Source: Nitrospiraceae bacterium (GTDB taxonomy: Bacteria > Nitrospirota > Thermodesulfovibrionia > UBA6902). Taken from it: a stretch of 45,060 nt of DNA. How positions within the stretch are numbered: the first letter of the stretch is position 1; every line of letters begins with the position of its first letter. The stretch is from NCBI GenBank assembly GCA_003599425.1, contig QZKC01000090.1:1-45060 (forward strand), written 5' to 3'. Below the pieces are notes generated by a model. It worked only from the letters and a program-made list of their open reading frames with translations, was not told where the DNA came from and did not search any database. The position numbers and the translations under genes are program-made. Below are positions 14,011-37,972 of the stretch, one piece after another.

Positions 14011-14356
<346 letters not shown>

Positions 14357-27949: not shown

Positions 27950-28011
27950 AGGTTTTATAGAAAAAGGAAAGTTTTTAATATAAAATAAAAGTCATAGAGG
28001 AGGTGACTAAA

Positions 28012-28254
28012 ATGAGAGCTGTTGCAAATGTTGTTTTAGATAAAGCAGAAGAAGATGTATTAACAAAGATGGTTGAAACAGGACTTTTCCCAAGCAAAGA
28101 TGAAGCAGCAAGGGCTGCGATTATCAAGTATGCGTCAGACCTCGGGATTTTCAGTCCCGATATGTTGTGGAAGAAAATAGTCCGGTATAAAAGAAGAAAA
28201 GTCACTCCGGAACAGTTAAAAAAAGACCTTAAGGCAATTGAGAATGAGACTTAG
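28012..28254 (+). CDS. Ribbon-helix-helix-like antitoxin (VapB-type candidate)
   Basis: An 80-residue protein from ATG 28012, after AGGAGGTGACTAAA. The start MRAVANVVLDKAEEDVLTKMV and the segment SKDEAARAAIIKYASDLG fit a small DNA-binding antitoxin. It overlaps the PIN-domain gene by 11 bp, the usual coupling in toxin-antitoxin pairs. By analogy it would neutralise the toxin and repress its own promoter. Confidence 0.75.
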   Translation: MRAVANVVLDKAEEDVLTKMVETGLFPSKDEAARAAIIKYASDLGIFSPDMLWKKIVRYKRRKVTPEQLKKDLKAIENET

Positions 28255-28669
28255 GGTTTTTCTCGATACGAATGTTTTTATCTATGCCTTTGAATTCCCC
28301 GGAAGCAATTCCAATAAAATAATAGACCTCCTCAATAAAGGACAAATAGAAGCTGTAATATCTGAACGTGTGCTGAAGGAAGTGCAGACATATTTCAAGA
28401 AATATTATGACAAGGATTTAGCAGCGACTTTCAGGGATTATATTTTGAGAACTTGCACTATTATGCTTTCTGTTGATGTCAGAAAAGAGATGGCAGAATA
28501 CAAAAAGCTGATAAAGGACAAAGACCTTGAGCAATTGGCCGTTGTGAAAAAGCTCGGCATCAAATATCTTGTAGCCTATGACAGAGATTTTGAGAATTTT
28601 GAGGAATATATCACACCCAAAGCGTTCATAAAAGAGATGGATATTAAAGCGGCATCAAGCGATTATTAG
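28244..28669 (+). CDS. PIN-domain ribonuclease toxin
   Basis: A 141-residue PIN-domain protein from ATG 28244. The catalytic acidic residues are visible: Asp in VFLDTNVFIY, Glu in ISERVLKEV, and the C-terminal acidic cluster KDKDLEQL and VAYDRDFEN. PIN toxins cut RNA. It is coupled to the preceding antitoxin and lies directly upstream of the defence island, so it may be part of the same acquired region. The 70 bases after it hold a CAGGC-TTCAA-GCCTG hairpin (28680-28695). Confidence 0.8.
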   Translation: MRLRVFLDTNVFIYAFEFPGSNSNKIIDLLNKGQIEAVISERVLKEVQTYFKKYYDKDLAATFRDYILRTCTIMLSVDVRKEMAEYKKLIKDKDLEQLAVVKKLGIKYLVAYDRDFENFEEYITPKAFIKEMDIKAASSDY

Positions 28670-28739: not shown

Positions 28740-28748
28740 TGCTATAAT
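28740..28748 (+). promoter_or_regulatory. Extended -10 promoter of the defence operon
   Basis: TGCTATAAT (TGn plus consensus TATAAT) ends five bases before the ATG at 28754, so transcription would start at or next to that codon. No -35 is obvious. Confidence 0.45.
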
Positions 28749-28753
28749 CCTTC

Positions 28754-28870
28754 ATGTCTAAAGGCTCCCCCAAATACGGCCCTGACAATCCGCATCCGTT
28801 TAGCACACGGAAGACCGAGCTGATCACTGAGACAAAAGGTTATAGCAGTCGAGCGAGGATTGAATTTTGA
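28754..28870 (+). CDS. 38-aa ORF resembling the N-terminus of the Mod methyltransferase
   Basis: The frame starts at ATG 28754 and ends at TGA 28868-28870. Residues 9-23 (GPDNPHPFSTRKTEL) closely match residues 9-23 of the downstream methyltransferase ([15 protein letters not shown]). The DNA is also similar (CACGGAAGACCGAGCTG versus CACGGAAGACGGAGCTT). Its stop overlaps the TTG start of the PHP-ATPase gene by 2 bp, so the pair is coupled. It may be the relic of a mod gene split by insertion of the PHP-ATPase gene, or a functional short peptide. Confidence 0.55.
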   Translation: MSKGSPKYGPDNPHPFSTRKTELITETKGYSSRARIEF

Positions 28871-31764
28871 GACCGAAATACCCCAAAGGGTCCGAATGGC
28901 GTAAATGGGATTTGCATGTACATACTAAATCGGATGCGTATACTTTCAGTGCTGAACACCACATTTCAAGTAGAGAACAGAATGATGATGAGTATCCCAA
29001 AGTCTTTGTTGAACATATAAATTCTATTTATAACTTGGGAGCTATTGCGATTACTGACCATAATTCAGCTAATTGGATTGATTCAATAATTGAAGAAAAT
29101 AAAAAATATGCCGTTCAAAATAGTCGTCAAGAGATAACTATTTTTCCCGGTGTCGAAGTAGAAAGCAGTGACGGGATACATCTTTTGGTAATTTTTAATC
29201 CTACTACTCAAATAGACACGGTTAAAAACAACCACAGAAAAATAAATTGGAAGGAAACCATCGAACATTTTTTAACTGCAATAGAACTTACACAAGGTAG
29301 TAATGCTTCAAAAACAACAGAACAAATAATGGAAGCAGCGGAAGAAAGGGATGCTTTATGTATTTTTGCACATGTGACGTCAGATAAAGGATATTTTAAA
29401 ATTTCAAGCGGAACTTCTAAAATTAGAATTTACAAGCACAGATTGACACAGATATATCAAATACCTATCGGCGGGGTTAATGATGGTCAAAGGAATATAA
29501 TAGATGGCAAAGATACCAATTATTGCGATGAACAAGGGAAACAAAAATCTGTAGTTTGCATAACTGCAAGTGATACAAAGAAATTGGCCGATATAGGGGG
29601 AAACAACTGCTGGATTAAAGCAGACTCTACCTTTGAAGGACTAAAACAGATTTTATATGAACCGCAAAGGGTCTACATTGGAAAAGAGCCGCCTAATAAA
29701 ATTGATAAAGATAAGATTATCAGTTCACTGTCTATCTCTAATTCGAATGACTGGTTTTCTGATAACTTATCCATAGAGTTTAATGAAAATCTTGTTAGCG
29801 TAATAGGAGGTAAAGGGACGGGGAAAACTGCTCTATTGGATTTGTTGGCATATGCGGCGGGCAAGAACTTTAAAGATTTCGATGAGGATTCATTTCTTAA
29901 TAAGGCATACAAAAAACTTAAAGGAACCACTTTGAAGTTAAGATGGGCAGATGGTACGGAACAGCCTATATCTATTGGCGATATGAAGATAGAGGCGCCG
30001 GAGGATAAAACACGATATTTATCGCAAAGCTTCGTCGAACATTTATGCTCCATTGACAAAATAGGAAAACTCAGAGAACAGATAGAAAACGTCGTCTTTC
30101 AAAAAATTCCTGATGAAGATAAAGCTAACTATATAGGTTTTACTGATTACAAAACCGCTCAACTCAAAATTATTTCAGATAAGAAAGCAAAAGTCGTAAA
30201 TAAGATAGAGGACTTGAATCGGCTCATTGTCGGTAACAAGTTTCTTATGTCAAAGAAGACCGAGTCTCAATCAGCCATAGATAAGATTAAGAAGAAAGAC
30301 GCCGAGCTCAAGGAAGATCTAAAAAACTTAATAGCTACCTTGTCAAGTGAAGTAGAAAAGAATAATTTTGAAAAGCTTACCGCGCTGAATAAATCTAAAA
30401 CACTCCTCGAAGAAAGAATCTCATCGTGCAAATCAGATTTGTTGACATTGGAGGAAGTTAAGAATGACATTTCTCAGTTGAATGACAATATTGAGTTCTG
30501 GGTCAGTGACATTAAAGAGAAGCTTACTACTGTAAATGTATTGCCATCTGATGTAGACAAAGTCGCTATCAACCTGTTTCCTGAAACTCTAAATACAATA
30601 ATTCTGACAAGAGAAGAAGAGATCAAGAAAGGGATTAGTGCTGAAAGCCTGAGATTAAAAGGTGTCATTTTGGAAATTGGTGCTTTAGACGGAGTTTTAA
30701 ATCTTGAGAAATCAAAGCAAGACAATGTCACGAAGATCAACGAGCAAATTAATGCTAACAAGAAGTTGCGTGACTCTTATGAGGAGGAACTAAGAAAGAT
30801 TGATAAGGCAGAAAAAGGCCAACCTGAGTTAATAGCAGAAAGAGATGGCTTATATATTAATTACTTTGAATTGCTTTTTGAGGAGAAAAACAAACTCTCT
30901 CTTATTTATTCCCCTCTTATGGAGAGTCTGAAACAAAGCTCTCGTAAAGATGAAACATTATTTGAATTTACTGTAACCTTTAATTGCGATTTGGCTGCTT
31001 TTGCAGGAAAAGGGAATGAACTCATAGATCATAAGAGAAGTGGAAGATATCATAATCAGTCTGCAAATGCATTATATGAGGACATAAATAAGGTTATGTT
31101 CTTAATTGACATCTCTAAGGTCAGTCTCGAAGAACTTGAAAAAGAGACAATCAAGTCATTCACCCGAAAAGTTGAAGAACTTTTCGTGAAAGATGAGAGC
31201 GGGAATCCTTATCAAATAGCAGACCAATTAAAAAAAACCGGTTCTCCCGAAGAGGACTTTTTCAACTGGTTATATTCTGTCGAATACTTTTCAATTAACT
31301 ATTCAATAAAATTTAATGGTATTGCACTTGATAATTTGTCACCCGGCTTGAAAGGTGTTGCATTGCTGATTCTTTTTCTTGAACTTGATAAAGAAGATAC
31401 ACGCCCACTGCTTATTGATCAACCTGAAGAAAATTTAGACAATCGTTCTATCTATGAGACTTTAGTTGGGTATTTCAAGGCGGCCAAATCAAGAAGACAG
31501 GTTATAATGGTCACACATAATCCAAATCTTGTAGTAAATACTGATTCTGAGCAGGTGATCGTGACAAATTTTGACAGAGAGAAAAAAGAACAATCTTCTT
31601 ATATTCATTACGTTTCCGGCTCTCTTGAAAATACGTTTCAGGAAAATCCTGCTGAACAAATAATGCTTGAAAGAAAAGGAATTAGAGAACACATCTGTCA
31701 AATTCTTGAAGGGGGGAAAGAGGCTTTTGAGAATCGAGAAAAGAAATATGGCTTTAAGTCATAA
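28867..31764 (+). CDS. TrlF-like PHP-domain SMC-type ATPase
   Basis: A 965-residue protein. The N-terminal PHP domain carries the metal ligands HxH (H17, H19 in WDLHVHT), AITDHN and EVESSDGIH. It is followed by an ABC/SMC-type ATPase: Walker A GGKGTGKTALL (about 313-322), a long coiled coil (about 400-680), a signature SPGLKG (about 825) and Walker B LLIDQPEENLD (849-859). PHP domains are phosphoesterases, and this pairing matches the TrlF family as I remember it. The start is a TTG at 28867, coupled to the 38-aa ORF. The gene is 41 bp upstream of mod. It is AT-richer than the flanking genes, which suggests transfer. Confidence 0.85.
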   Translation: MRPKYPKGSEWRKWDLHVHTKSDAYTFSAEHHISSREQNDDEYPKVFVEHINSIYNLGAIAITDHNSANWIDSIIEENKKYAVQNSRQEITIFPGVEVESSDGIHLLVIFNPTTQIDTVKNNHRKINWKETIEHFLTAIELTQGSNASKTTEQIMEAAEERDALCIFAHVTSDKGYFKISSGTSKIRIYKHRLTQIYQIPIGGVNDGQRNIIDGKDTNYCDEQGKQKSVVCITASDTKKLADIGGNNCWIKADSTFEGLKQILYEPQRVYIGKEPPNKIDKDKIISSLSISNSNDWFSDNLSIEFNENLVSVIGGKGTGKTALLDLLAYAAGKNFKDFDEDSFLNKAYKKLKGTTLKLRWADGTEQPISIGDMKIEAPEDKTRYLSQSFVEHLCSIDKIGKLREQIENVVFQKIPDEDKANYIGFTDYKTAQLKIISDKKAKVVNKIEDLNRLIVGNKFLMSKKTESQSAIDKIKKKDAELKEDLKNLIATLSSEVEKNNFEKLTALNKSKTLLEERISSCKSDLLTLEEVKNDISQLNDNIEFWVSDIKEKLTTVNVLPSDVDKVAINLFPETLNTIILTREEEIKKGISAESLRLKGVILEIGALDGVLNLEKSKQDNVTKINEQINANKKLRDSYEEELRKIDKAEKGQPELIAERDGLYINYFELLFEEKNKLSLIYSPLMESLKQSSRKDETLFEFTVTFNCDLAAFAGKGNELIDHKRSGRYHNQSANALYEDINKVMFLIDISKVSLEELEKETIKSFTRKVEELFVKDESGNPYQIADQLKKTGSPEEDFFNWLYSVEYFSINYSIKFNGIALDNLSPGLKGVALLILFLELDKEDTRPLLIDQPEENLDNRSIYETLVGYFKAAKSRRQVIMVTHNPNLVVNTDSEQVIVTNFDREKKEQSSYIHYVSGSLENTFQENPAEQIMLERKGIREHICQILEGGKEAFENREKKYGFKS

Positions 31765-31805
31765 ACGACATGATGATAAACTGACAGTACATAGGAAGAG
31801 AAGGC

Positions 31806-33818
31806 ATGGATAAAAACAATAACCATTGGAGCCCTGACAACCCTCATCCGTTAAGCACACGGAAGACGGAGCTTGTGTGGGAGGGGAAGTATGACGAGTA
31901 CGGCAACAGGCGTGAGGTAGATATCGCAGGATGCGCCATGCCTATGCAGAAGATCGAGACGATTGACGAACCCGCCAGCCGTTTGAGTCAGACAGGCTTG
32001 TTTGACGCGCAGAAGGCGCATAAAGACGACTTTCGCAACATGCTCGTCTGGGGCGACAACAAGCTCGTCATGGCAAGTTTGCTTAAAGATTTCAAAGGCA
32101 AGATTGACCTCATCTGCATAGACCCGCCGTTTGATGTAGGCGCTGATTTTACTATGGATGTTCCAATTGGCGACGGACAAGAGACCGTTGATAAAGACCA
32201 GTCTACTCTTGAGATGGTGGCTTATCGCGATATGTGGGGTAAAGGAACTGACTCTTATCTTCACATGATGTATGAACGTCTGGTACTCATGAAGGAATTG
32301 CTGAGCGAAACGGGCAGTATTTATGTGCATTGTGATTGGAGAATGAATTCTCTGCTTAGGCTTATTTTAGATGAAGTTTTTTCACCTGATCGCTATCGTA
32401 ACGAAATTCGTTGGAGACGCCAACCCCCCCGTGGTGCAAAAGCGGTTTCTAATCAGTATGCTCGTTCTTCTGATAGCATTCTTTTCTTCTCGAAAAGTGA
32501 GAGAATGACTTGGGTAGCTGGTTATAAAGAATATTCAGATGAATATATAAAAGCTAAATTTCGACCCGATGAAAATGGGCGTTTGTATAGAATAGATACA
32601 ATCGGCACTTATTCAGATGAATCTATCTCAAAGTTTGAAGCACGAGGAAGGATTTATCATTATCCATCAGGTAAATTAGGTTTAATTCGATATTTAGATG
32701 AAGCAAAAGGGGAACCGCTAACAGACATTTGGTCCGATATTCCCGAAGTGAACTCTCAAGCTCTCGAAAGATTAGATTACTCTACACAGAAACCCGAAGC
32801 CCTTCTTGAGCGCATTATCAAAGCCTCTTCCAACGAAGGCGATCTTGTTGCCGACTTCTTCTGCGGCAGCGGAACTACCGGCTCAGTTGCCGAGCGTCTT
32901 GGACGCCGTTGGATAATGGCTGACCTCGGCAGGTTTGCGATTCATACGACACGCAAGCGGATGATTGAGCTTCAGAGGAAGCTTTATGAAGAAGACAAAC
33001 CGTATCGCGCCTTTGACGTCTACAATCTCGGAAGGTATGAACGCCAGTGGTGGCAGAAGGAGAGGCTGAAAGGCGCTGACGAGGAGCATAGAAAGGTTGT
33101 GCTTGAATTTTACAGGGCGGAGGTATTGCAGAACTCAAGCTCCCCGCTTATTCACGGCAGAAAAGGCTCTGCACTTTGTCATGTTGACAGCATTGACGGG
33201 CTCTTTACACGGGATGAATTAAAGGCGGTTGCAAAGGCTGCGAAAGAGGCAGGCGCAAAGGAGCTTCACTGCCTTGCGTGGGAATTTGAAATGGACCTGC
33301 GGCTTGTCTGTCATGAGATTGAACATGCTGACGGCGTTAAGATAAAGCTTATTCCCATTCCACGTGAGATCATGGAGAAGAACAGGACTACGCCGCCGCC
33401 GTTTCTTGAGGTTGCGGTGTTAGAGGCGGAGGTTATTTATAAAAAGGGGAAAGGAAACACACCCCTTGATCCCCTCTTGATAGAGGGGAAAAATAAAAAA
33501 ACCGTTGACATCAAGCTCACCAAATTTGTCCCTTCGCTGGCAGAAGTTCCAAGCAAAGAACTTGAGGCTTTAAAAGAGAGGGCGATAAAGAGCGGGTTTG
33601 ATTTTATTGACTTTTGGGCAGTGGACTTTGACTATCAGGACGGTCAGCCGTTTGAACATCATTGGCAGGCATACCGCACGAGAAAAGACCGCTCCCTTCC
33701 AACCGTCTCCAATCACGAATTCGACAAATATCCAAAGAAGGGCAAGTACACCGCCTGTGTGAAGGTGGTTGATATATTCGGATGTGATACGAGTATTACG
33801 GTGGAAGTGGAGATATGA
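31806..33818 (+). CDS. Type III-like DNA (adenine) methyltransferase Mod
   Basis: A 670-residue site-specific DNA methyltransferase. Motif IV is DPPF (106-109) and motif I is FCGSGTTG (352-359); their order puts it in the beta class, which includes type III Mod subunits. The N-terminus ([20 protein letters not shown]) is also found, shortened, at 28754. A C-terminal domain (about 420-670) lacks a name I know. Bases 33449-33500 are a 7-bp-type repeat encoding [16 protein letters not shown] within that domain. It overlaps the following peptidase gene by 4 bp and likely protects DNA from the Res subunit at 34574. Confidence 0.9.
33455..33491. repeat. Repeat with hairpin inside the mod gene
   Basis: ACACCCCTTGATCCCCTCTT at the left includes CCCCTCT, which pairs with AGAGGGG across a TTGAT-like loop. 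The CCCCT unit is related to the second repeat in nnr (CCCTAAC). It inserts a proline/lysine-rich stretch at about residues 549-565. Confidence 0.55.
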
Positions 33819-34282
33819 AAATGAGAATCAAAATTCCTTATTTTAAACAAGAAAAAAACACAACTTGCGGTGTTGCATGTGTGAAAATGGTCCTTGCGTT
33901 TCATGGAAAAGAAATCAGCGAGTTTGACCTGGAAGATGCTTGCGAAACAAGCTGGCTTGGGAATACGTGTGGAGAAATTGTTGCAGGAGTAAAGAAGCTC
34001 GGATTTGATGCGGAAGAAATAGATCAGGTAACTATTAAATATCTTTCAGCCCAGCTCAGGAAAAAATATCCATTTATAGCGCTCATAGACCCTGCTGTTT
34101 TATACGGAGGTATCGAAGGCTTCGGACATTTCGTTGTTATAACAGGGATTGAAGATGATAAAATATACTATCACGACCCTGATTTGGACAAAGATTTAAC
34201 AAAAAATATAACGCATTTTAAGAAGGCATGGAAGAAATTTTCATGTAAAGGAGTAAGAATATGCAAATCTTTGAAAAAGTAA
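33815..34282 (+). CDS. C39-like papain-fold cysteine peptidase in the defence operon
   Basis: A 155-residue protein without a signal peptide. It has the full peptidase-C39 pattern: Gln12 and the nucleophile Cys18 in [14 protein letters not shown], the His105 in [10 protein letters not shown] and Asp121 in HDPDL. C39 peptidases usually trim double-glycine leaders when fused to ABC exporters; this one is free-standing. Its ATG overlaps the mod stop (ATGA) and its 3' end overlaps the next gene by 22 bp, so it is an integral member of the operon. The substrate is unknown. Confidence 0.8.
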
Positions 34283-34563
34283 GAAAATATCTCTATGAAA
34301 ATATCGGGCATATGACAACAGCAGGCACACCAAAGTATGACCTGAAGGAAAATATATGGAAAGTGCCTGTGCTCTGCAAAACCGAGAGGGGAATAATTAT
34401 TGTTGGAGAATTTCATGCTGATAAAAACGGCAATTTTACCAATATCCCAACAAAGGAAGAAATGCTGAAAACCGTTAAGCAAGAGATGAAGAAACTCCCA
34501 TTCCTTTATTACGGGTCAAAAAAAGAATTGGATAAACGGAAGATTAAACCGGTTGCGGTATAA
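34261..34563 (+). CDS. Small protein (100 aa) linked to the C39 peptidase
   Basis: The frame starts at ATG 34261 inside the end of the peptidase gene, with AAGGAG a few bases upstream. The 100-residue product has a strand-rich core: TPKYDLKENIWKVPVLCKT, then GIIIVGEFHADKNGNFTNIPT. No family is recognised. The tight coupling suggests a partner, substrate or inhibitor of the peptidase. It ends 10 bp before the Res start. Confidence 0.7.
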   Translation: MQIFEKVRKYLYENIGHMTTAGTPKYDLKENIWKVPVLCKTERGIIIVGEFHADKNGNFTNIPTKEEMLKTVKQEMKKLPFLYYGSKKELDKRKIKPVAV

Positions 34564-34573
34564 AGGATAAACT

Positions 34574-37500
34574 TTGCCAAGCCCCATCATAAACCTTTCA
34601 GCCCTTGAGCCTTTATACCTTCCTCACGAAATGCCGACACATCACCGTGTCAGGGCCAAGAAGGAAGGTGAGCCTGCCGAACTTGTAAAAGGAAGAAGAC
34701 CGAGCGATATTGTCATAGCGCAAAACCTCCGTCATTATGTCACCGAATGGAGAGATACGGATTACGCCGGGGCATCGGATACTACACGAGAACTTCTTTA
34801 TCACTGGTTCGGCAGAGACCATACGATTAAAAACAGCGAGGGGGACGTTATTCCCTTCAGATATTATTTCTGCCAGAGAGAGGCGCTTGAGACTTTTATA
34901 TTTTTAAGAGAAGTGCGCGGGCTTGATACCCTTTCAGGGATTGTATCTGAATTCGGCGGAGATAACAGAGAGATAGCGGCATTAGGCATAGACCCCGAAG
35001 AAGATATCTGGGCAAAGTATGCCTTCAAGGTAGCTACAGGTGCGGGCAAGACCAAGATAATGAGCCTTGCCATTGTCTGGAGCTACTTCCACGCCCTCAG
35101 AGAATCATATTCTCCGATGTCAAAGCATTTTGTTGTGATTGCTCCTAACCTCACTGTCTTTGAAAGACTGAAAGAAGATTTCGGCGACGGCGCAATATTC
35201 GACAGAGACCCTCTGATACCGGTTGCATGGAGAGGGGACTGGAATTTGTCAGTCGTGCTTCAGGATGATACCACCGGTGCGGTCACTGGCGGAACTTTAT
35301 ATCTGACAAACATCCATCGTCTATATGAAACAGGCAAAAGGCAGAGAAAGAAAGACGCCGAGACCTGCGATTGGATGGGGCCAGCCGTATCAAAGGCAAA
35401 GGCCCTCGATACAGGTGAAGCGCTAAGAGAGCGGATAACATCTCATAAGCGCATTATGGTTCTCAATGACGAAGCCCACCATGTATGGGATCCTGATTCC
35501 GCATGGAACGAGGCGATAACCTATCTTAACGACACCATCAGAAAAAGAGGCGGGGAAGGCATTGTCGCCCATCTCGATTTCTCCGCTACACCTAAAGACA
35601 ACAAGGGGAATATTTTTAAACATGTTATATGTGATGCTCCTCTTGGTGAGGCGGTAGACGCAGGGATAGTTAAGTCGCCCATCATCGGCAGGGGTGAGAG
35701 GCTTATTGAGCAGACGAGCGATGACGATTCAATTAAGTATCAGCAACATTTAATGATAGGATATTCCCGCTGGCTTGTATCTAAAGAGGAATGGGAAAAA
35801 AGCGGCAAGAAAGCGCTCCTCTTTGTCATGACAGAAGACACAGAATCTGCAAGCCAGATAGCGAACAGACTAAATACCGATTCCCTTTATAAAGAACTTA
35901 ACGGCAAGACGATTAACCTCCACACACGGCTTAAAGGCAAACTCAAGAAGCGCGGCAAAGGCGAGAAAGTCTATTATGAATTTGTTGAAGACGAAAAAGA
36001 GATCAGTGATGAAGATTTAAAAGAATTGAGAAAACTCTCAAGAGAACTTGATTCAAACAAAAGCCCTTATCTCTGCATTGTATCTGTCTTAATGCTGCGG
36101 GAAGGCTGGGATGTGAAGAACGTAACGACCATTGTCCCGCTTCGTCCATACAGCTCCAAGGCAAACATTTTACCTGAACAGACACTCGGTAGAGGACTTA
36201 GGCGTATGACCCCGCCGGGACAGGCTGCGGAGGTTGTCACAGTCGTTGAACACAAGGCTTTTGTAAATCTTTATAAAGACCAGTTGAGCCAGGAAGGCTT
36301 GCCAATTGAAATAGTAGATGTAGACAAGATACCGAAAACGACAGTAACAATATATCCTGACAAGACAAAAGATTTGGAAACGCTTGATATCCTTATCCCG
36401 TCACTCAGCGCGGGATACAAACGGTCTCCCAGGCTTGAGAATATTACAATTGAGGATATCAGAAAGTCTTTCTCAAGATTCTCACCTTTGCCCATCGGGG
36501 AAGTAAGAAAGACAGAGATTGATTACGAGGGAAGACATCTGTTTACAAATGAGATTATTGAGAAGATGAAAGTACAGCTTCCGTTACTTGAGAGCGGCGT
36601 CGGAGCGATTTCATTCTATTGCAAAGAACTTGAAGCGCAAACACGATTAACCGGTATGCACAGCACATTAGCTCTCTTGATACAGACATTTCTTGAAGAG
36701 ATATTATTTGAGAAAAAGGTCAGCATCTTTGAAGAAACGCTCACCAGCCGTCTTTCAGACGCGGATGTGCGTGAACATATAAGGGCAACATTTGTTCCTT
36801 TAATTCTTTCCAGGACTACTTATATAGAGGAACGCTTACAGCAGTATGAACCTGTATCTGTCTGTAGCTGGAAACCGTTTCAGGTGACGCATTCAGAGAC
36901 ACGCCCAACGCTTCCTGCAGAAAATACACCGTTTAATCTTGTCCCTTGCAATAGAGAATTTGAAATTGCGATGACAACATTCTTAAATCGTGCATCTGAT
37001 GTACAGTCCTTCTGTAAAAATGCAGGACCTCAGTCGCTAAGGATTGATTACCTGTCAGGATCTGGAAGGCTTTCATTCTATACCCCTGATTTCATTGTCA
37101 GGAAGAAAGACGGGAATTATCTGCTTGTAGAAACGAAAGGACGTGAAGATATTGACGTTCCATTGAAAGCAACTGCTGCTGTTTCCTGGTGCAAGGCCGC
37201 AGCATCTCCAAAAGTGAAATGGCAATATCTTTATGTGCCACAGGCAGTATTCAGCGGCTTTACTTCTAACAAAATAGAAGATTTGGTAAGAACATGCGCG
37301 CCATCTTTACAAGAACTAATAAGGGAAAGGGCCCAACCACAATTGTCCTTACCGCTGGGTGAATATATTGAGGGAAAAGTTACCGGCATTGAAGAATTTA
37401 TCAACGCAACACATCTTGATAAGTTGCCGTCGCGTTATAAAAAATCCATAGAACAGGCAATAGCAGTATTCCAATTTTTTGAGAAGAAGGAAGGCATGTC

Positions 37501-37972
37501 ATTTGCTCCTGTATTTACTGCACTTCTCGGGCCGATTGATGAATCAGCCAAAGGACTTATAACTGATTTATTGCTGCCATTACTTCCGGCTATCCCTGCT
37601 GAACAGAAAAACTTTTTCGCCCCATATTATGGAAGCCTGAACAAAGGTACGACTGACTGGCTGAGAGCTAATGCCAGAAATCTTGAAAAGACGCTGGTTT
37701 TTAAAAATGGACTTATGCCGATAGGGCTTCTGAAATTCTGTCTCGAATATTCTCAGGGCGACTATGACATCGGAGGCGTCTTTGATGCGGCAAAACAGAG
37801 TTTCTTCCGATTCGGCAAAGAAGGTTTATATGGCACTGTGAAAGAGATATATGATTTCAGGAACACCTACATTGCACATCAAGAGAAAGAGTTGACCGAC
37901 ATTGATACAGCGAGAGAAGGGCTAATGAAATGGATTAGAGGATTGTATCAGATTTACTTTGCGCATCATTGA
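34574..37972 (+). CDS. Type III-like restriction helicase-nuclease (Res) with HEPN-like C-terminus
   Basis: The 1132-residue protein starts with TTG 34574 after AAAGGA. It has a superfamily-2 helicase core with Walker A ATGAGKT (154-160), DEAH (299-302) and motif VI EQTLGRGLRRM, then a PD-(D/E)xK nuclease site with D839 and E853-T-K855 (TPDFIV ... LVETKG). The last 150 residues form a helical region with RNTYIAH (R1096-x5-H1102), a HEPN-like RNase motif. It resembles restriction endonucleases of the BPTD_3080 type as I remember them. With Mod it should form the restriction part of the system. Confidence 0.88.
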   Translation: MPSPIINLSALEPLYLPHEMPTHHRVRAKKEGEPAELVKGRRPSDIVIAQNLRHYVTEWRDTDYAGASDTTRELLYHWFGRDHTIKNSEGDVIPFRYYFCQREALETFIFLREVRGLDTLSGIVSEFGGDNREIAALGIDPEEDIWAKYAFKVATGAGKTKIMSLAIVWSYFHALRESYSPMSKHFVVIAPNLTVFERLKEDFGDGAIFDRDPLIPVAWRGDWNLSVVLQDDTTGAVTGGTLYLTNIHRLYETGKRQRKKDAETCDWMGPAVSKAKALDTGEALRERITSHKRIMVLNDEAHHVWDPDSAWNEAITYLNDTIRKRGGEGIVAHLDFSATPKDNKGNIFKHVICDAPLGEAVDAGIVKSPIIGRGERLIEQTSDDDSIKYQQHLMIGYSRWLVSKEEWEKSGKKALLFVMTEDTESASQIANRLNTDSLYKELNGKTINLHTRLKGKLKKRGKGEKVYYEFVEDEKEISDEDLKELRKLSRELDSNKSPYLCIVSVLMLREGWDVKNVTTIVPLRPYSSKANILPEQTLGRGLRRMTPPGQAAEVVTVVEHKAFVNLYKDQLSQEGLPIEIVDVDKIPKTTVTIYPDKTKDLETLDILIPSLSAGYKRSPRLENITIEDIRKSFSRFSPLPIGEVRKTEIDYEGRHLFTNEIIEKMKVQLPLLESGVGAISFYCKELEAQTRLTGMHSTLALLIQTFLEEILFEKKVSIFEETLTSRLSDADVREHIRATFVPLILSRTTYIEERLQQYEPVSVCSWKPFQVTHSETRPTLPAENTPFNLVPCNREFEIAMTTFLNRASDVQSFCKNAGPQSLRIDYLSGSGRLSFYTPDFIVRKKDGNYLLVETKGREDIDVPLKATAAVSWCKAAASPKVKWQYLYVPQAVFSGFTSNKIEDLVRTCAPSLQELIRERAQPQLSLPLGEYIEGKVTGIEEFINATHLDKLPSRYKKSIEQAIAVFQFFEKKEGMSFAPVFTALLGPIDESAKGLITDLLLPLLPAIPAEQKNFFAPYYGSLNKGTTDWLRANARNLEKTLVFKNGLMPIGLLKFCLEYSQGDYDIGGVFDAAKQSFFRFGKEGLYGTVKEIYDFRNTYIAHQEKELTDIDTAREGLMKWIRGLYQIYFAHH

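Follow-up and report, generated by a model that had tools for sequence, protein, structure and literature searches.

A composite type III-like restriction-modification operon of a Nitrospiraceae bacterium, with exchangeable modules and a leader probably left by an older mod gene

The operon and its layout

How defence islands gain genes yet keep them expressed is poorly understood. One locus in point lies in contig QZKC01000090.1 (GenBank assembly GCA_003599425.1) of a Nitrospiraceae bacterium, of which positions 1 to 45,060 were analysed (hereafter the window). It is a composite locus, all on one strand (+), of six co-directional open reading frames (ORFs; 28754-37972) that encode a leader of 38 amino acids (aa), a TrlF-family protein, the DNA methyltransferase Mod, a C39 cysteine peptidase, a 100-aa protein termed p100, and Res. 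Our reading, to which we give a probability of roughly 0.6, is that this is a mobile defence operon in which a constant type III-like Mod-Res core carries exchangeable modules, and in which the leader descends from the start of an older mod that has otherwise been lost. Relatives show this operon in different states: as an empty site, a bare core, a core with modules, and an eroded core in which gene starts survive. All activities discussed below are predicted from sequence.

In operon order, the junctions are a 4-nucleotide (nt) overlap between leader and TrlF, a 41-nt gap before Mod, a 4-nt overlap between Mod and C39, a 22-nt overlap between C39 and p100, and a 10-nt gap before Res. The ORFs and the family searches bear out the original prediction of six such genes, from a Mod-like leader to Res, with overlaps or gaps of at most 41 nt. 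The extended -10 promoter that it had also proposed, TGCTATAAT, is present at 28740-28748 (+). Since it stands five nt before the leader ATG, a leaderless transcript is predicted. The same element with the same spacing precedes the leaders of three relatives (G003, G004 and G044; genomes are numbered, G000 being that of the window), and the other seven leaders compared lack it at that place. Counting both strands, the 45-kb window contains four copies of the motif TGNTATAAT, which is weak evidence by itself; promoter and terminator scans of the operon region gave no more sites than shuffled sequence. We infer that the six ORFs share a single transcript.

The Mod-Res core

In beta-class Mod proteins, DPPY or DPPF comes before FxGxG and the recognition region lies between them. 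This order is found in the window's Mod (31806-33818, +; 670 aa), where DPPF (residues 106-109) precedes DFFCGSGTT (350-358) and an identity profile places a variable region at residues ~161-320, between the two motifs. The protein matches the PADLOC model MTase_III at E 1.3e-224, and its earlier assignment to the beta class holds. Res (34574-37972, +; 1132 aa, TTG start) has a Walker A motif (35033-35053), a DEAH box (35468-35479) and a PD-x14-ExK site (37085-37138), the SF2 helicase motifs and nuclease site expected of a type III Res, and it scores 45.8 bits against ResIII PF04851 (cut-off 22.5). The window's genome also holds a second, distant Res-like gene (G000:C42:6702-8363; 30% identity).

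With the more distant relatives of Res (~35% identity), the alignment ends near residue 905 and does not include the tail formed by the last 228 residues (37286-37969, +). Across the phylum, 12 of 395 genomes encode this tail, and all 12 belong to this class. It contains R1096-NTYIA-H1102 (37859-37879), in which R, N, Y, A and H are invariant in all 11 tails compared. HEPN proteins carry a conserved R-x4-6-H motif, and the RN-x4-H of the tail satisfies this rule. Pfam HEPN_Apea matches five of the 11 tails weakly (best E 0.019), and the unrelated family Cac1_C matches five of 11 at a better E of 0.002; the window's own tail has no match in the same Pfam search. A single-sequence structure model, with a mean predicted local distance difference test (pLDDT) score of 41, is too poor for a fold reading. 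Thus, of the Res-HEPN fusion proposed earlier, the DEAH box, the PD-ExK site and the invariant Rx5H motif stand, but the profile support for HEPN is weak; the tail is possibly HEPN-like, and this is the weakest identification of the operon.

TrlF, the C39 peptidase and p100

The TrlF gene (28867-31764, +; 965 aa, TTG start) encodes an N-terminal PHP-like part and an SMC/ABC-type ATPase. It scores 557.5 bits against NF045780 over residues 7-962, above the curated cut-off of 350, and is a member of that family. The earlier description as a PHP and SMC-type ATPase is upheld by this family match, but not by the Pfam PHP model alone, which gives 14.1 bits (cut-off 26.4). Residues H17, H19, E97, H105 and D236, which fit PHP metal ligands, are invariant in all ten TrlF-like proteins compared.

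A second TrlF lies inside a distant type III-like operon (G042:C59; L058:4485-13302), in the order mod (694 aa), TrlF (899 aa), a 396-aa ORF and res (938 aa), with gaps of at most 17 nt. The operon of G042:C59 lends some support to an association of TrlF with type III loci. A TrlF match is present in 1140 plasmids, and it spans 80% or more of the query in 32 of these. Four plasmids, whose gene tables are incomplete, were viewed: none has an annotated mod or res directly beside TrlF, and in one an N-6 DNA methylase lies ~5.6 kb from it.

The C39 gene (33815-34282, +; 155 aa) encodes a stand-alone cysteine peptidase domain that scores 73.1 bits against PF03412 (cut-off 22). The complete Cys-His-Asp triad claimed for it is confirmed, with C18, H105 and D121 invariant in seven of seven homologues. 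Its nearest solved relatives are the peptidase domains of ComA and PCAT, and its highest mean hydropathy over 19 residues is 1.4. No relatives were found in viral contigs; in plasmids, the best 20 of 494 matches are at most 32% identical, and those that are named are transporter peptidases.

The adjoining p100 gene (34261-34563, +) has no match in Pfam, PADLOC or NCBIfam, none in plasmids and no relative in viral contigs. A structure model of p100 (mean pLDDT 75.5) found no match in the PDB at E 0.001 or better. Matches to p100 occur in eight of 230 class genomes, seven of them full length, and in eight of 345 phylum genomes, three being partial or broken. Each of the seven full-length genes overlaps a C39 gene at the latter's end, and the C39-p100 pairs of G203 and G182 lie apart from any mod-res seen. 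Since the same place in relatives holds pairs resembling toxin-antitoxin systems, the analogy suggests that C39-p100 is a self-contained pair. It is a candidate uncharacterised module. That p100 acts as antitoxin or inhibitor is a guess from its position.

Two places of exchange

Searches with Res across 230 genomes of the class, with the resulting loci read by eye, recovered full-length relatives in G003, G004, G018, G042, G111, G196 and G226, and partial ones in others. In these loci Mod and Res are constant and the accessory genes vary, which argues that the latter are exchangeable modules. There are two places of exchange: before mod, where the window has TrlF, and between mod and res, where it has C39-p100. 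Classes were assigned by eye; the counts exclude G098, the distant mod-res families and any locus truncated ahead of the junction.

Of 13 mod-res junctions, five hold C39-p100 (G000, G018, G042, G076 and G094), and three hold a 101-aa protein with a DUF2283 protein (G003, G004 and G111). An MNT-HEPN pair is present additionally in G004 and, eroded, in G181. The junction of G044 has a ClpP-like SDH-type serine protease (L052:12777-13784), a second peptidase type in the place of C39, and that of G226 has a DUF559 protein; the junction is empty in G196 and G148. Within this set, the res of G076 runs off its contig, and G094, G148 and G181 have internal deletions in both mod and res.

The gene nearest to mod on its upstream side was readable in 15 loci, and it is TrlF in two of them (G000 and G042). 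In G196 it is HerA with SIR2, in G004 an AAA ATPase, in G044 a 257-aa protein, in G181 a DUF2442 relative, and in G003 a nuclease-like protein to which a mod start is fused. G163 has a protein that matches PD-T7-5 weakly (44 bits), and G148 a HEPN protein whose score barely passes the cut-off. The gene is unnamed in G005, G030 and G226, and is an apparent chromosomal neighbour in G018, G076 and G094. The distance from this gene to mod is ~200-540 nt in G005, G148 and G226.

These counts bear on the original proposal that the locus is one integrated composite system, in which TrlF and the peptidase would be dedicated parts of restriction with a sensing or abortive role. Its tight gene order with overlaps fits such a system, as do the TrlF between mod and res in G042:C59 and the precedents of PrrC and of HEPN domains fused to restriction enzymes or helicases (PMC3710099, in the part available). 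Moreover, G042, which belongs to a different family within the same taxonomic order, has the identical gene order leader-TrlF-Mod-C39-p100-Res, with a TrlF only ~30-47% identical. On the other hand, each module is found in a minority of the loci, and both TrlF and C39-p100 also occur away from mod-res. The part of the proposal that stands is therefore the shared order in G042 and the TrlF of G042:C59; the check proposed with it, the peptidase and the 100-aa gene between mod and res, succeeds at those five junctions, and homologous mod-res loci mostly, though not consistently, lack the PHP-ATPase and the peptidase. We regard a single integrated system as unlikely, though TrlF or the peptidase might still have a sensing or abortive role.

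The leader and orphan mod starts

The leader (28754-28870, +; ATG start) consists of approximately the first 24 codons of a mod followed by unrelated codons. Against MTase_III it aligns over positions 6-32 (E 1.2e-4), and a query of Mod residues 1-50 retrieves it at E 1.5e-6. Its stop overlaps the TrlF start by 4 nt (TTGA). Over shared codons its nucleotide identity to the downstream mod is 0.78.

The same query found 26 places in 19 of the 230 class genomes: 16 mod starts, some belonging to internally deleted genes, nine orphans, and one degenerate copy (G229). The orphan mod starts (9/26) precede something other than the rest of mod, namely accessory genes. Queries with the middle 50 and the last 50 residues of Mod each gave no orphans among the 14 close matches to which inspection was limited, leaving out 2 and 23 distant matches, respectively. 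The 23 distant C-terminal matches (40-54% identity, some in short frames) thus lie outside the orphan count; distant C-terminal matches at identical contig coordinates in G182:C9 and G006:C27 perhaps reflect a shared element or cross-contamination. By Fisher's test, in which kinship is uncorrected, orphans are enriched among starts relative to the middle (p 0.015), to middle and end together (p 0.0005), and when each genome is counted once (p 0.010). The main tables omit G229 (9/25); with G229 as a non-orphan, p is 0.0006. The control for start bias consists of the start, middle and end searches only, as the fetched loci were chosen partly for their mod starts and are biased.

By tblastn, two further mod starts were located: one precedes TrlF in G042, the other a 297-aa gene in G163, a genome that also has a degenerate one. 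Starts of other genes are likewise orphaned, including those of res (G044), a PLD-helicase (G042 and G182) and HEPN (G181). In G042 (L046:5667-5932) two scars follow one another, a PLD-helicase start and then a mod start, with TrlF after them. In G003 (L043:6159-7211) a mod start of ~50 codons is fused in frame to a 300-aa protein that reads as nuclease-like and has no Pfam match.

Eight leaders were compared with their own downstream mod. The nucleotide identities are 0.65-0.90 and none of the pairs is near-identical; the leaders therefore represent other alleles and not fresh duplications, and recent target duplication as their source was ruled out (0/8). The stop of the leader overlaps the next start by 4 nt in G000, G042 and G042:C16; for the remaining leaders, the next gene is fused in frame (the second leader of G003) or begins within ~105 nt. 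A 20-nt pattern at leader ends, allowing at most three mismatches, was found only at the G003, G004 and G163 junctions from which it had been built, among the loci searched. Two of these three junctions precede the same gene pair, perhaps through common ancestry, and the idea of a recombination site was dropped.

The leader had been listed as one gene among the six of the operon. It is better explained as the scar of another, older mod copy, which the comparisons above make probable. A different view takes the leader for a peptide under selection that controls the operon through regulation or protein binding, such as an attenuator or a Mod decoy. The 4-nt overlaps just described, and a similar one at the res scar of G044, would suit such a peptide. 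However, the mod-derived part of the leaders ranges from ~22 to 103 codons and their tails are unrelated, and their ratios of nonsynonymous to synonymous substitutions (dN/dS) are within the range of intact mods. These ratios cannot separate recent descent from selection, because the leaders would have belonged to functional mods for part of their history. A selected peptide seems improbable to us.

Eroded loci and the origin of the scars

The scar of an older mod could also have arisen if an accessory gene was inserted directly into a mod start, by one homologous and one illegitimate crossover or with a long target duplication, so that the leader is an insertion scar. Leaders stop shortly ahead of accessory genes and several break near codons 22-26, as this would predict, and insertions of restriction-modification (RM) systems with target duplications of ~100 bp are reported in the accessible part of PMC3874152. 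Against it, leader and downstream mod are never near-identical, and the sequence upstream of the leader is not repeated before mod, as judged by eye.

The most telling locus is that of G044. On one contig, a pdxJ that the assembly breaks is followed by the 83-aa and PIN genes that also lie left of the window's operon, a mod scar of 74 codons and the start of MNT. On another, MNT ends and is followed by HEPN, a res scar of 19 codons that overlaps the next gene by four nt (ATGA), the 257-aa protein, mod, the ClpP-like protease, a fragmented res, and acpS. If the two contigs adjoin, as we infer, an older mod-MNT-HEPN-res operon would have lost the bodies of mod and res and kept its module, with a newer block after it. 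In G181 (L056), mod and res are eroded with MNT and the start of HEPN between them, and this HEPN start continues without a break into the C-terminal 39 residues of Res. Loci L054, L055 and L056 have mod and res internally deleted with both gene ends kept. Because G044 retains the older mod-MNT-HEPN-res order as scars, we consider it more likely, at modest odds, that older cores decayed than that genes were inserted directly into mod; such insertion is a possible but lesser candidate.

The insertion site and flanking genes

The operon of the window sits between pdxJ and acpS. Among 28 family genomes with a true AcpS match, including that of the window, this site is empty in 21 (PdxJ at most 370 nt upstream of AcpS), Res precedes AcpS in three (G000, G003 and G002), and neither is within 1.5 kb in four. 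No long duplication at the pdxJ-acpS junction was seen by eye. In relatives with the operon at other sites, it is co-directional with the preceding gene in G004, G163, G076 and G094, and not in G018.

At the left end of the island is a pair of ORFs resembling a toxin-antitoxin system, an 83-aa ORF (28003-28254, +) and a PIN-domain ORF with a PIN_3 match (28238-28669, +). G044:C104 has this pair as well, after PdxJ and before the leader. Identity to G003 is 95% for the 83-aa gene and 81% for the adjoining pdxJ, and the PIN gene has no match there. Farther upstream, the window has a tmRNA gene (14011-14356) with the tag ANTNLALAA.

A model for assembly and action

Type III Mod and Res modify and cut DNA, and the proposed mechanism builds on this pair. 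Replacement of the core would have taken away an older mod and left its promoter and first codons. The leftover mod start would still begin translation and may pass ribosomes to TrlF through the 4-nt stop/start overlap, by presumed coupling. Mod would methylate, and Mod with Res would cut unmodified foreign DNA in the type III manner. By analogy with Ppl, a distant relative described as gated by nucleotides and 3' ends, TrlF could be an ATPase-gated exonuclease acting on DNA that has free 3' ends, and those left by Res would be suitable for such an enzyme. The two proteins of C39-p100 may be a peptidase and its dedicated small inhibitor or substrate, acting as a self-contained module. The Res tail is a possible RNase restrained as a back-up; HEPN domains fused to restriction enzymes or restriction helicases, and the idea of a back-up RNase freed when restriction fails, appear in the available part of PMC3710099. 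The order of events in this assembly is conjectural.

Several observations weigh against the model. Orphan gene ends exist as well, of TrlF in G025 and of p100 in G071. The leaders have open frames and low dN/dS, which fits a selected peptide too. The two TrlF copies that precede this mod have the 41-nt TrlF-mod spacer in common, so TrlF and mod may have moved jointly and the scar may stem from insertion of TrlF. The histidine after T-D in TrlF, H65, is kept in only five of the ten TrlF-like proteins, and TrlF scores 137.7 bits against the Ppl family NF042955, far below its cut-off of 1000, which places it outside that family. Type I and type III systems look less mobile than type II in the portion of PMC3874152 available. 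Furthermore, every operon-bearing genome is a multi-contig draft and some breaks fall at contig ends (G044 and G042), so that the mod-like fragments might come from collapsed or chimeric contigs. Yet leaders lie inside long contigs, two in G003:C37 (255 kb) and one in G004:C88 (128 kb), and have open frames and promoters in common; an assembly artefact is very improbable.

If the leader is the leftover start of an older mod, which is probable, the operon keeps a partial record of its own assembly. A further and tentative step is to see the promoter and first codons of a type III-like mod as a durable module on which defence genes dock and are expressed. The leaderless mod start, retained when the gene is lost, would then drive each newly gained module by passing on ribosomes, and operons would grow by repeated replacement of the core and bear legible scars of former mod alleles. 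Should scars supply translation starts, this would be a direct and testable way of stacking defence genes under one promoter, and orphan mod starts could serve as a search tag for new defence genes.

Relation to known systems

Type III enzymes cleave in an ATP-dependent manner between two inversely oriented sites, and mod directly before res is their usual, not strictly defining, arrangement. The window resembles EcoP15I in that its Mod matches the EcoP15I Mod chain (4zcf_A) and a superfamily 2 (SF2) helicase with a PD-ExK site, Res, lies downstream. It differs in that the two-gene module C39-p100 parts Mod and Res, for which reason we call it type III-like; a direct mod-res junction is found among the 13 loci only in G196 and the eroded G148. 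The Res matches to curated families are also partial, the best-scoring named one being the BPTD_3080 restriction endonuclease family NF046055, at 253 bits with a cut-off of 800. The peptidase differs from the C39 ABC transporters that process bacteriocins in being a stand-alone protein, without a transporter part.

TrlF resembles Ppl in combining PHP with an SMC-like ATPase, and it matches Ppl models at 120-138 bits. Ppl is described as an anti-phage PHP exonuclease gated by nucleoside triphosphates and 3' ends (PMC12904381, from the part available). The family name seems to come from Photorhabdus, where trlF belongs to a three-gene temperature-restriction (TRL) operon with trlR and trlG; RM methyltransferase genes lie near the TRL operon on one plasmid, and, within the available part of the report, no role could be demonstrated for TrlF, the mutations having fallen in trlG (PMC7554251). 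The TrlF of the window sits instead in a type III-like RM operon.

In the open-access literature on nested or composite RM defence and on mod remnants, nothing matched by title or abstract start, and gene starts retained with exchangeable modules were not met in the literature searched on these topics. The closest likeness is to PrrC and PrrI, where extra effector genes also lie inside an RM operon (PMC3710099, as far as available). That system is of type I, whereas the window has a type III-like one with several exchangeable modules and orphan mod starts, features that do not appear in the available part of PMC3710099. RM operons with embedded effectors are a known kind, and the leader is the most unusual feature of this one.

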